This document shows, one piece after another, positions 17,565-21,604 of a DNA stretch of 64,000 nt. Positions within the stretch are counted from its first letter, which is position 1. Each line of letters begins with the position of its first letter. The DNA comes from Stigmatella ashevillena. Lineage in GTDB: Bacteria > Myxococcota > Myxococcia > Myxococcales > Myxococcaceae. The notes under the pieces are model-generated. The model worked only from the letters and a program-made list of their open reading frames with translations, had not been told where the DNA came from and did no database searches. Position numbers and translations under genes: made by a program. Location: the NCBI RefSeq assembly GCF_028368975.1, contig NZ_JAQNDM010000002.1, positions 9,046,425 to 9,110,424 of the forward strand, read 5' to 3'.

Positions 17565-19391
17565 CTACAAGCCACTCCCGGTGTGGGTGGTGTGGCAGCT
17601 GCCCGTGCACTGCTGGAAGGACTCGCGGCCACCGCCCACGTACATGTTCTGGATGGGCCCGAACTTCTTCACGTGGCTGTCGGGGTAGCTCTTGTGGCAC
17701 GAGAGGCAGGCGGCCTTGCTGGTGCGCTGGACGCTCTCCTTCGTCAGGTGGCACTTGCTGCACTGCGCCGGCGAGTTGTCGAAGCGGTCCGAGCGGCTGT
17801 GGATGAAGTGCACGCGGACGAAGACGGGCCCTTCGAGCTCGAAGCCCAGGGGCGCGTGGCACCCGGCGCACGTGGCGCGGTTGCCGTTGGCATGCAGCAC
17901 GGAGGTCAGCTCGCCGCCCTCGCTGTGGCAGCTGTTGCAGGGACCCGTGGTCAGCGTCGCCTCGGTGCGCTGCTTGGTGCCCACCTGGACTTCCACGGTG
18001 TTCGTGTAGGGGATGTCCTCGCCCAGGTACACGCGGCGGCCCTTGGTCGTCACCAGGTAGGTGCCGGGCTCGGCATTGGCGGGCAGCTGGAAGTTCCACG
18101 TGTCGCTCACCGGAGCGGCCCAGCCGGCATGGTTCGGATCGAACGCGCCGCCGAACAGCTTGTTGGCCGGCGGGAACGTCCGGAACTGGGAGTAGACGCC
18201 GTCCCGCTCGAGCGTTGCGACGGACTGCTCGTCATCCGGGCCAAGGAACGTCTCCAGGTCGACGATGGAGCGGATGGGCTGAATGCGCTGGGCCGGACCG
18301 ATGATCTGGGAGATCAGCATGCGCTCGCGGTGCTTGCGGCGGTAGTACGTCGCGGTCGGATCGAAGAACGCCCGGTAGTACTGGATGCCCGGCTCATTCG
18401 TGCCGAAGACGATCTCGTTGTAGGTCGGCAGCGAGCCCTGGGTGTGGAGGCGCTTGCCGGCGCCATCCTTCAGGCTCAGCCGGAAGGACAGCTTCGTGCC
18501 GGGCGCGTAGGTGCCATCCTTCCGAGGCGGCGTCAGCGGGGTGACGTCGATGCCGAAGCCGTAGCTGTACTTCGGCTGGGCCACCTGCTCCACGGGGATG
18601 GTGTAGGGCGAGAAGGGGCGCAGCGTCCAGCGCAGGCGCAGGGCCTTGGTCCTGGAGCTGAGGGTGAGGGTCTTGTTCTTGGCGGCCGTCCGGGCATTGC
18701 GCAGCTCCAGCAGCCCTTCCTCCATGAAGCTGTTGGCGCCATTGCAGTTGGTGGAAGTCTGGCAGCCGTACGTCCACTGGACGGCGCGGAAGCGGCGCAC
18801 GAAGAAGTCGTCACTGTCCTTGCGGTCGTTGGAGCCCGTGAACAGGAGGATGGGCAGGCCCGTCAGGTTGCCCTGGGCATCGACGGGCTCCACGGTGAAG
18901 GCGCTGGGCACATCCATCCACGCGGCGTTCCGGTAGAAGCGGCGGCGCTTGAAGCCATCCTCTCCCGCCAGGAGATCAAACGACTCGTCCGCCAGTTTCA
19001 CGCCGTTCCAGCCAAGACAGGCAAAGTCCCCCGTCCTGTTCAGCCCAGCAACTCCCTCGTCCTTCGAGGCCTCGATGCTGGAGCGGATGTCGATCTGGTT
19101 GATGTAGACGGTCTGTCCCGCGCGCACGCGCAGCGGCATGCCCTCGCCGTCCTCCACCTCCAGCGCGATGCCAATCTTCTGGCTGTTGGAGGGAGCGCTC
19201 CCAAGTCCGGCGAAGTCCTCCTGCATCTGCTGCTCGGAGGTCTCCAGGGCCGGGGCGTCCATGGACTCTTCAGCGCCACCGCAACCGCTTCCCACCGGAA
19301 AGAGGACAGTGAGCAAGAGGGCGAGACCCGAAGCACCGAGCCTCCAGGCAGTGCCAGTTGTCGCAGCCTTCGATTCGATTGTCGCGCTCAC
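17565..19391 (-). CDS. Multiheme c-type cytochrome lipoprotein
   Basis: A 608-residue exported lipoprotein: the signal peptide ends in PVGSGC. Residues ~25-480 are a beta-rich region without recognised motif. The last 124 residues hold the hemes: CxxCH at about 485, 508, 544 and 562 (CNSCH, CAGCH, CSKCH, CLSCH), then a CxxxCH variant (CTGSCH) at about 595. Additional histidines could serve as distal ligands. The layout (large extracellular part plus heme tail, lipid anchor) fits an OmcA/MtrC-like surface electron-transfer protein, but with fewer hemes than those decaheme proteins. GTG 19391 was chosen because GGAGG lies 6 nt upstream and it directly precedes the signal peptide. No porin or partner cytochrome is adjacent. 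Confidence 0.85.
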   Translation of the reverse strand: MSATIESKAATTGTAWRLGASGLALLLTVLFPVGSGCGGAEESMDAPALETSEQQMQEDFAGLGSAPSNSQKIGIALEVEDGEGMPLRVRAGQTVYINQIDIRSSIEASKDEGVAGLNRTGDFACLGWNGVKLADESFDLLAGEDGFKRRRFYRNAAWMDVPSAFTVEPVDAQGNLTGLPILLFTGSNDRKDSDDFFVRRFRAVQWTYGCQTSTNCNGANSFMEEGLLELRNARTAAKNKTLTLSSRTKALRLRWTLRPFSPYTIPVEQVAQPKYSYGFGIDVTPLTPPRKDGTYAPGTKLSFRLSLKDGAGKRLHTQGSLPTYNEIVFGTNEPGIQYYRAFFDPTATYYRRKHRERMLISQIIGPAQRIQPIRSIVDLETFLGPDDEQSVATLERDGVYSQFRTFPPANKLFGGAFDPNHAGWAAPVSDTWNFQLPANAEPGTYLVTTKGRRVYLGEDIPYTNTVEVQVGTKQRTEATLTTGPCNSCHSEGGELTSVLHANGNRATCAGCHAPLGFELEGPVFVRVHFIHSRSDRFDNSPAQCSKCHLTKESVQRTSKAACLSCHKSYPDSHVKKFGPIQNMYVGGGRESFQQCTGSCHTTHTGSGL

Positions 19392-19673
19392 GGTGCCCCT
19401 CCAGTCAGTGGCTCTGCCGTCGGGTCTCTTGCCTGGGTGGGCTCCCAGGGCAGACGGGTTGAAGCCATGTGGAGAATATCCGTTTTGAGTGGAACGGCAC
19501 GCGAAATCGAGAAATATTTCCAGCCTACTAAATCTCGTTAAATCAAGTAATGCCTGTTTATATGATTTCTCTCGTTTCATGCGTTCTTAAGAATGTAAGA
19601 AAGCGAGCAACGGTCGAGTTCGGAGCTTGGAAACGTTCGTGAAGAAGGGCAGGCGGGGCGCGGTGGGAGTGGC
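19392..19673. other. AT-rich intergenic region upstream of the cytochrome gene
   Basis: 282 bp between the cytochrome start and the ceramidase stop, both on the minus strand. Positions ~19480-19610 are strikingly AT-rich for this genome and probably hold the cytochrome promoter. I could not assign a -35/-10 pair with confidence and see no gene here. Confidence 0.5.
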
Positions 19674-20444
19674 TCACCGGACGAAGGGGAGCACCCGGGC
19701 GGCCCAACGCACCCGAGGCGTGTGTCCGAGCGTTTTCAGCCGGTCGTGAGCGATGACCATCAGCAGCGCGTAGAACCCGCTGGAGACCAGGACGTGCCAC
19801 CAGGCGTGGAACTGCGGGTTGGGGATTCCCCGCGCGGGGAGGGCCTCGTTGAGTGTGGGGCAGAGCTGGATGTCACTCAGCCACAGAACGATCGCGAGCG
19901 CATAGGCGCTGACGCCAAGCTGGAAGAGGCGCCTGGCCGCCACGTCCTGGCTGCGGCGATGGAGGAGGTAGACGCGCGCGAGCGCGAAGAACTCGAGCGA
20001 CGCGAAGCTGACCTGGAAGAGAAAGAATTGAAGGGGGCCTCGGGTGCCCGACGCGAGGTAGGTCGAGAGCACCGCGTAGGCCGCCAACGCGAGCGGGAAC
20101 CAGGCGCCCAACCGTCGCTGCGGGCGGTTCTCCACCAGGATGTAGACCATGATGAGGGCCAGGTAGAGCATGGGCAGCTCGTCCAGCATCTGGAGCTGGA
20201 ACAGGAGCGTCGCGTGGAACCCGATGCTGCCGATGCCGACCACCGCCAACATCGCGAAGGCTGCCATGAAGCGCCGCTCCAGCACGCGGTGGTGGAGCGC
20301 GATGGCCAGCACGCCCCCGAGCACCATGGCCAGGCTGGAGACGGAGTTGAACAGCTCGGCCACATGGTGGAGGTGCTCGTAGTTCGTCTCGCACCAGTCC
20401 ACCGTCGAAGTGGGGGGACCCCAGAAGCCCTCGGAAGGCGCCAT
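19674..20444 (-). CDS. Alkaline ceramidase (ACER-type, seven-pass membrane hydrolase)
   Basis: A 256-residue multi-pass membrane protein that should hydrolyse ceramide to sphingosine and fatty acid. Every metal ligand of human ACER3 is present with identical spacing. The calcium set D16, W17, E19, N21, E30 lies in GFWGPPTSTVDWCETNY and the following helix. The zinc set H77, H213, H217 is joined by S73 and D88 (G-S-I-G-F-H-A-T-L, M-L-D-E-L-P-M, H-A-W-W-H). About seven hydrophobic helices follow. The family is mainly eukaryotic; myxobacteria are among the few bacteria that make sphingolipids/ceramides, which gives a plausible substrate. It lies downstream of the Bet gene but is separated from it by a strong hairpin. 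Confidence 0.88.
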   Translation of the reverse strand: MAPSEGFWGPPTSTVDWCETNYEHLHHVAELFNSVSSLAMVLGGVLAIALHHRVLERRFMAAFAMLAVVGIGSIGFHATLLFQLQMLDELPMLYLALIMVYILVENRPQRRLGAWFPLALAAYAVLSTYLASGTRGPLQFFLFQVSFASLEFFALARVYLLHRRSQDVAARRLFQLGVSAYALAIVLWLSDIQLCPTLNEALPARGIPNPQFHAWWHVLVSSGFYALLMVIAHDRLKTLGHTPRVRWAARVLPFVR

Positions 20445-20563: not shown

Positions 20564-21604
20564 CTAGGCCTCGGCCGAGGCTTCCTTCTTGCCCGAGGCG
20601 GGCACACGGCAACGCAGCTCCGTCTCCGCATCCAACGCCACGAGGTTCTCACGCATCGCCTTGGCCCACTTCGCCTTGGGTTGCTCCATCAGCTTCTCGT
20701 GAGCCAGATCGATGGTCTCACTCAGCTCGTCATCGCTGAGCTCCGAGGCGGTCTTGCCCTTGTACGGGCCGAAGGCCACCACGGTGGCCGAACTGCGCGG
20801 TCGGGGCGCGGGCTCCGAGACAGGCGGTAGTTCGGCCACCGGAGCCGCCGCGGGGGGCTGGACCTCCATCGACAGCTGTGTGGCCGGCAGGGGAGGGAAG
20901 GAGGCCTTCACCGGTCCGGGCCGCGCGCCCAGCACCTCGTAGGTGCCCGTGCCCGTGGAGGGCGCGGGTTCCTCCGCCGCTGCGGCGTGCTCGTACTCCT
21001 CGGCAGGCATCTCCTCGCGCACGTACAGGCCCCCGAAGGCTTCGGGATACGCCTTGCGCAAGGCCGCGACGCGGGCGCACTTCTCGATCATCGTCGTGGG
21101 AATCTTGGCCCACAGTGGCGTCTGCTGGACGTAGCCCGAGAAGTCGAGCCACACCACGACGGGCAGCTTGCCCTCGCGCACCACGCGGGCCCAGGCGCCC
21201 ACCAGGGCCCCCTTGCGCTTGGCCGGGTTGAAGCGGTGCACCACCTCGCCCTTGCCCTGATCGACGATGATCTCGTCCTCGGCGTACACGGCACTGGCCT
21301 GGATGCCCTTGAAGTCCGGGAAGCGCTCGGCCCGCGCCAGCATCCCCGCTTCGGAGGGTTGGAACTCGTACCGTGTCACCCAGGTGGGCCGCTCCCGGCT
21401 GCCGGCATTCTGCCGCCGGCCCACGCAGAAGGCCTCCTTCAAGAGGGGATCCAACCCTGATCGCTTGCACTGCTCGATGAAGAGGGAGAACTCATCCTCT
21501 CCGATGCCCTTGGGGCAGATGGTTCGCTTGATGAGCTCAACGCGCTCACGGCCCCACGCCTGCTGGGCTGCCGCAGTTTCTACCTTGTTGTGTCCGTCCA
21601 TCAC
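20564..21604 (-). CDS. bet: Phage-type recombination protein Bet (RecT-family single-strand annealing protein)
   Basis: A 346-residue protein. Residues ~20-200 form the Bet/RecT core: IKRTICPKG, then E-F-x-x-F-x-x-x-C-x-x-x-G-L-D-P-L-x-K-x-x-F, the Y-E-F-x-P-S-E-A-G segment and T-x-x-x-K-C-A-x-x-x-A-L-R-x-A-Y-P. Such proteins anneal complementary single strands during phage or mobile-element recombination, normally beside an exonuclease and an SSB. Neither is here, so it is an orphan. The C-terminal ~140 residues are a Pro/Ala-rich linker plus a small conserved-looking module around FGPYKGKTASELSDDEL. GTG 21604 has AGGAG 7 nt upstream; ATG 21601 is the alternative. Confidence 0.85.
   Translation of the reverse strand: MMDGHNKVETAAAQQAWGRERVELIKRTICPKGIGEDEFSLFIEQCKRSGLDPLLKEAFCVGRRQNAGSRERPTWVTRYEFQPSEAGMLARAERFPDFKGIQASAVYAEDEIIVDQGKGEVVHRFNPAKRKGALVGAWARVVREGKLPVVVWLDFSGYVQQTPLWAKIPTTMIEKCARVAALRKAYPEAFGGLYVREEMPAEEYEHAAAAEEPAPSTGTGTYEVLGARPGPVKASFPPLPATQLSMEVQPPAAAPVAELPPVSEPAPRPRSSATVVAFGPYKGKTASELSDDELSETIDLAHEKLMEQPKAKWAKAMRENLVALDAETELRCRVPASGKKEASAEA

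Follow-up and report, generated by a model that had tools for sequence, protein, structure and literature searches.

A member of the ACER alkaline ceramidase family with an intact predicted calcium site in the myxobacterium Stigmatella ashevillena

Does a myxobacterium carry a true member of the eukaryote-like alkaline ceramidase family and, if so, on which lipid and at which face of the membrane would it act? The question is raised by one gene in a 64,000-nucleotide stretch of the Stigmatella ashevillena genome (NZ_JAQNDM010000002.1, positions 9,046,425 to 9,110,424; hereafter the window), the whole genome being 10.95 Mb. The gene occupies 19674..20444 on the minus strand, with an ATG start at 20444 and a stop codon at 19674-19676, and encodes 256 amino acids plus the stop. 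Its codon-position GC is 0.91 at the third position versus 0.43 at the second, and neighbouring genes are similar in this respect.

The product of this gene (hereafter the window protein) matched PF05875 (Ceramidase) as its single Pfam family at E ≤ 0.1, with 203.2 bits against a cut-off of 32.5 and coverage of profile positions 1-256 of 259, while an NCBIfam profile search gave no match. Human ACER3 was the sole distinct PDB sequence matched at E ≤ 10 (phmmer, E=1.7e-33), and the two proteins share 33% identity over 227 aligned columns and are identical at 12/12 functional positions, an agreement well above what chance would produce. The sequence-only reading had matched ten residues to ACER3 with offsets of 3 and then 4, and alignment to the sequence of 6g7o gave the same correspondence. 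The predicted calcium-site residues D16, W17, E19, N21 and E30 align with D19, W20, E22, N24 and E33 of ACER3. They are encoded on the minus strand in a predicted calcium loop, D16-W17-C18-E19-T20-N21 (codons 16-21, 20382..20399), aligned to D19WCExN24 of ACER3, and in the E30 codon (20355..20357), which corresponds to a leukodystrophy site in ACER3. The zinc-site residues S73, H77, D88, H213 and H217 align with S77, H81, D92, H217 and H221, and on the same strand they fall in an SxxxH motif (codons S73-H77, 20214..20228) containing the predicted zinc ligand H77, in the D88 codon (20181..20183), a predicted contact to the zinc-bound water, and in an HxxxH motif (codons H213-H217, 19794..19808) holding two further predicted zinc ligands. 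In addition, C18 in the calcium loop and C195 (19860..19862, minus strand) align with the C21-C196 disulfide pair of ACER3 and are predicted to form a disulfide as well.

All ten residues had been described as metal ligands. The alignment supports their assignment to the two metal sites, but the wording is too broad, because passages of the ACER3 structural report describe calcium contacts made by W20 and E22 with their backbone carbonyls, and hydrogen bonds from S77 and D92 to the zinc-bound water (PMC6303388). The same source places calcium at the N-terminal loop, where it connects the zinc histidines with W20 and E33, and attributes a human leukodystrophy to the loss of a calcium ligand. 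In a mutational study of ACER3, activity is given as undetectable for H81A, H217A, H221A and D92A and as about 0.17% of the original for S77A (PMC9436119).

An AlphaFold2 model based on a 15-sequence alignment (mean pLDDT 86.5, pTM 0.85) showed seven long helices and a short helix at residues 195-204. The first 30 residues, including the calcium loop, were modelled at low confidence (block pLDDT 56, 67 and 54; residues 23-26 below 50). Foldseek retrieved 6g7o at E=2.1e-11 and no other entry at E ≤ 0.001. With VIA-align 2, in a comparison restricted to Foldseek's own candidates, 6g7o was superimposed at Z 28.2 with an rmsd of 2.5 over 235 residues, followed by 8j6o ('transport T2') at Z 18.1, SIDT2, SIDT1 and SID-1 at 17.4 or lower, and AdipoR at 14.6 or lower. 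Among CREST folds the predicted model is nearest to ACER, and fold alone is no proof of function. The proposal of a eukaryote-like alkaline ceramidase in a bacterium thus finds agreement in profile, residues and fold, and in the tree described below. Assignment of the window protein to the ACER family is well supported by sequence comparison, and it is a bacterial member of a known family rather than a new kind of protein. Among the matches listed in the open-licence literature, none described a myxobacterial alkaline ceramidase.

PF05875 was matched at E ≤ 0.001 in 25/59 relatives of S. ashevillena, 14 of the 59 scoring at least 178 bits. In a larger set of 195 Myxococcota genomes, 62 had a match and 36 had one of at least 100 bits; these 36 are referred to as ACER-type genomes. 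Contamination or recent insertion from a eukaryote was rejected on the basis of these homologues together with the GC content of the gene, which is 0.669 against 0.658 for the window. The distribution is patchy, the ACER-type gene being present in 17/27 listed genomes of one genus (g23) and 0/16 of another (g43), and PF05875 was found in 0/14 control genomes. A scan of a contig collection matched 55 stretches, of which 16 were confirmed, giving 15 loci; because it depended on exact matches to two short peptide patterns, the scan would overlook divergent homologues from other phyla. Fourteen of the 15 loci come from Myxococcota, with species of Hyalangium, Pyxidicoccus and Myxococcus among them, or from contigs titled Deltaproteobacteria, and one from a contig titled as a Klebsiella pneumoniae metagenome-assembled genome (CAMAXZ010000059.1; ACER-type gene at L053:4522-5199). 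The GC content of the stretch examined on that contig is 73%, and one of the adjacent proteins carries a MYXO-CTERM-like tail at its end, so the Klebsiella label is probably wrong. No relative of the window protein was found in phages, plasmids or viral contigs (no match in the first two, no confirmed relative in the third), and a mobile or viral origin was rejected.

The lower-scoring PF05875 proteins offered a comparison within the family. After merging of duplicates, the residue alignment contained 58 distinct proteins, and once fragments (L026, L052/L083) had been set aside it comprised 37 full-length ACER-type proteins and 19 weak PF05875 proteins of Myxococcota (L015-L024, L027-L030, L084-L088). 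The latter are a sample of the weak PF05875 matches, and L025 (22.7 bits) lies outside it. All 12 functional residues are kept in 37/37 ACER-type proteins. The weak proteins, too, keep all five residues of the zinc site and the two cysteines (19/19), whereas a complete calcium site occurs in 0/19, the position of D19 being conserved in 3/19, N24 in 1/19 and E33 in 12/19 (ACER3 numbering). In a tree of 47 of the 57 rows, 10 near-copies having been omitted, the ACER-type proteins and human ACER3 were split from the 19 weak proteins at 100/100. Among the proteins compared, the ACER type is distinguished from the other PF05875 group by its predicted calcium site; the zinc site is common to both. 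Bacterial relatives of alkaline ceramidases are already on record as CREST hypothetical groups 1 and 2 in passages of PMC3146951, and the weak group may correspond to these.

It had also been proposed that such a gene bears on the origin of sphingolipid signalling. The trees gave this no support, since the AU tests rejected neither a single myxobacterial clade nor any other arrangement tried. With ACER3 as the sole eukaryotic sequence, on a long branch and with an odd composition, a single clade of all ACER-type Myxococcota had a p-AU of 0.412 and a grouping of ACER3 with the core, leaving three deep rows outside, a p-AU of 0.401; when the core was constrained to one clade, the tree was better by 3.89 than that of the free search (p 0.628). 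After the addition of four further eukaryotic sequences, entered in provisional form and not from a database record, one clade of myxobacteria had a p-AU of 0.317 and one clade of eukaryotes 0.243, and in the tree with these provisional sequences ACER3 and YPC1 grouped with the three deep rows of Myxococcota (98/93). The trees therefore express no preference as to which way transfer between eukaryotes and myxobacteria ran. A bearing on fruiting-body lipids, suggested in the same sequence-only reading, is speculative.

The side of the membrane at which the protein would act was approached through its charges. Lys and Arg residues were counted on each side of the membrane with helix limits taken from the predicted model. 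On average, ACER-type proteins carry 2.8 of them on the side of the N-terminus, calcium loop and zinc site versus 15.5 on the opposite side, with the same direction in 37/37, and the weak PF05875 group 3.9 versus 11.1, again with the same direction in 19/19. A hydropathy-based count gave 2 versus 17 for the window protein and the reverse, 12 versus 5, for the genome's own HlyIII protein, which is a single control. The aligned part of ACER3, excluding its C-terminal tail, has 8 versus 7 and no clear bias. By the positive-inside rule, the Lys/Arg-rich side of a membrane protein faces the cytoplasm. The asymmetry therefore predicts that the catalytic, calcium and disulfide side of ACER-type proteins is periplasmic, with the N-terminus out, and the conserved cysteine pair would then sit in an oxidising compartment. 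For human ACER3 the N-terminus was placed in the cytoplasm by TR-FRET, and its authors note that the cysteine pair then faces the reducing cytoplasm. For ACER2, passages of PMC3146951 place the C-terminus in the cytosol and the active site near the lumen. A broader scenario, in which Myxococcota hold ACER proper with an intact calcium site that was exchanged with eukaryotes early or repeatedly, the ancestral ceramidase faced the periplasm or lumen, and the cytosol-facing topology of ACER3 is derived or needs re-testing, is tentative and in our view rather doubtful.

The immediate neighbourhood gives little indication of the pathway in which the protein might work. Directly upstream lies a RecT-family gene (PF03837, 142.6 bits; 20564-21604, minus strand), and downstream a gene for a 671-residue protein (17565-19580, minus strand) whose C-terminal part has CXXCH matches of the cytochrome c3/c7 kind. 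Both are kept beside the ACER-type gene in three close relatives (L002, L003 and L008), at 89-96% and 69-87% identity, respectively, and tblastn found neither of them at the remaining loci, which for the most part extend 1.5 to 5 kb per side. Nothing next to the ACER-type gene was recognisable as a lipid gene. An operon or conserved neighbourhood was accordingly rejected, the flanks having been found in the three close relatives alone.

Elsewhere in the genome, a segment (L035:5137-8882) encodes a serine palmitoyltransferase (SPT)-like enzyme together with a protein that matches GNAT weakly and a third protein of the NAD-dependent epimerase/SDR type. The SPT-like protein scored 511 bits to NF047600, below the curated cut-off of 640, and its top PDB matches were bacterial serine palmitoyltransferases (about 7e-118). 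It is encoded at L035:7320-8882 on the minus strand and has about 120 extra residues, the SPT matches stopping near residue 397 of 520. Its NF047600 match is in line with the grouping of SPTs of Myxococcus and other delta-proteobacteria with those of Bacteroidetes, as described in part of PMC9386255. We predict that the three genes form a ceramide synthesis cluster and, from their position beside the SPT gene and from general descriptions of such enzymes, infer that the GNAT and SDR proteins are a bacterial ceramide synthase and a ceramide reductase, for which the names bCerS and CerR appear in PMC11334938. The premise that the host can make ceramides is thus backed by a predicted biosynthetic cluster in its genome, and a section of PMC9246714 gives ceramide phosphoinositol as present in M. 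xanthus.

A homologue of the GNAT protein (E ≤ 0.001) was present in 36/36 ACER-type genomes versus 108/159 others (Fisher p=5e-6 when related genomes are treated as independent; by genus, 11/11 versus 63/90 overall, p=0.015). SPT at E ≤ 1e-100 was present in 32/36 versus 57/159, the four ACER-type genomes that lack it at this threshold being G046, G071, G075 and G079. From these counts, the predicted capacity to make ceramide nearly always accompanies the ACER-type gene, and the gene is absent from many genomes that have the capacity. G012, G015, G016, G018, G026, G029 and G032 each carry two GNAT homologues on the same contig, separated by about 2 kb; the host genome has a single match. The host also carries a full-length PF04734 neutral ceramidase gene (580 bits; L031, G000:C2:3143781-3145202) and a second PF04734 gene (L032, C2:7793434-7793793) in which profile positions 21-146 alone were matched, at 33 bits. 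Neutral ceramidase identity was rejected for the window protein, as PF05875 was its only Pfam match at E ≤ 0.1 and the gene matching PF04734 is a different one, located elsewhere. Among the 59 relatives, a neutral ceramidase of at least 330 bits was found in 9/14 ACER-type genomes, so the two ceramidases are not always found together. Passages of PMC3131387 propose that ASAH2, the neutral ceramidase of eukaryotes, has a myxococcal ancestry.

Taking these observations together, we propose that the window protein is a seven-helix, zinc-dependent ceramidase of the ACER family with a calcium loop, located in the inner membrane and facing the periplasm, where it would serve accessory turnover of the cell's own ceramide or dihydroceramide. 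We give this reading a probability of about 0.72, and we infer the activity, substrate, calcium dependence, disulfide, location and orientation that it includes. Points that weigh against it are the full neutral ceramidase of the same genome, the lack of recognised lipid genes next to the gene, a neighbourhood shared with three close relatives only, the low confidence of the modelled calcium loop, the SPT-like score below its cut-off, the four ACER-type genomes without SPT at E ≤ 1e-100, and an orientation opposite to the one reported for ACER3, whose aligned part has no clear charge bias. The zinc held by H77, H213 and H217 would, with D88, hold a water molecule that attacks the amide carbonyl of ceramide or dihydroceramide, S73 would stabilise the oxyanion, and cleavage of the amide bond would release a free long-chain base and a fatty acid. 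The calcium loop formed by D16, W17, E19, N21 and E30, tied to the end of TM6 through C18-C195, would shape the floor of the pocket. Because the gene lies apart from the predicted ceramide cluster and is absent from many relatives that have the cluster, its role would be that of an accessory enzyme of ceramide turnover or remodelling.

An amidase or hydrolase of the ACER fold could alternatively act on another bacterial acyl lipid; phospholipids and N-acyl amino-acid lipids are examples. CREST proteins sharing this fold do use different lipids, Per1 for instance acting on GPI anchors according to passages of PMC3146951, and the 4/36 ACER-type genomes without SPT at E ≤ 1e-100, like the absence of operon linkage to sphingolipid genes, are compatible with a different substrate. 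We nonetheless consider this unlikely, as the nearest solved relative, ACER3, is a ceramidase, the entire ACER calcium site is kept, and the GNAT homologue of the predicted ceramide cluster occurs in every one of the 36 ACER-type genomes. Yeast YPC1, which belongs to the same family as the window protein, reportedly forms ceramide from a free fatty acid and a long-chain base independently of CoA, and the window protein might mainly run this reverse reaction. Such a role appears very improbable in a genome with a dedicated predicted cluster for ceramide synthesis. That the window protein is a PAQR or hemolysin III protein, as the common CREST fold and H3SD zinc module and the AdipoR scores might suggest, has a negligible likelihood, given that Pfam at E ≤ 0.1 returned no PF03006, no AdipoR sequence matched at E ≤ 10, the ACER3 fold was far closer in Z, and a separate HlyIII gene in the genome encodes a protein of opposite charge bias; placement within PAQR, a concern raised by the sequence-only reading, is contradicted by profile, sequence search, fold and tree.

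Three features make the window protein interesting: its calcium site is intact by sequence, its distribution among myxobacteria is patchy, and its active site is predicted to face outwards. As a compact bacterial protein that keeps all metal-site residues of ACER3, it would be usable for structural, calcium and topology work. It makes testable at which membrane face alkaline ceramidases act, a matter on which the ACER2 and ACER3 reports differ, and also whether ceramide-making bacteria break their ceramide down again to free long-chain base.

Compared with known systems, the window protein is most like human ACER3 (6g7o, 6yxh), with which it shares the ten site residues, the counterpart of the C21-C196 pair and the fold; it differs in being bacterial and, as an enzyme, putative. 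CREST hypothetical groups 1 and 2, if these are the weak PF05875 proteins, have in common with it the S-H-D-H-H zinc site, both cysteines and the charge-side bias (19/19), and differ in lacking a full calcium site and in forming a separate clade. PAQR, AdipoR and hemolysin III proteins share the CREST fold and zinc module, in contrast to the PF03006 match, which the window protein lacks, and to the charge bias, which is opposite in the one member examined from its own genome. The ASAH2-like neutral ceramidase in the same genome is a ceramidase by annotation, but its fold and family are unrelated. With respect to topology, human ACER3 is reported to have its N-terminus inside whereas the charges of the window protein predict it outside, and the orientation that passages on human ACER2 report, a protein whose sequence entered the comparison solely in provisional form, is the one predicted for the window protein.
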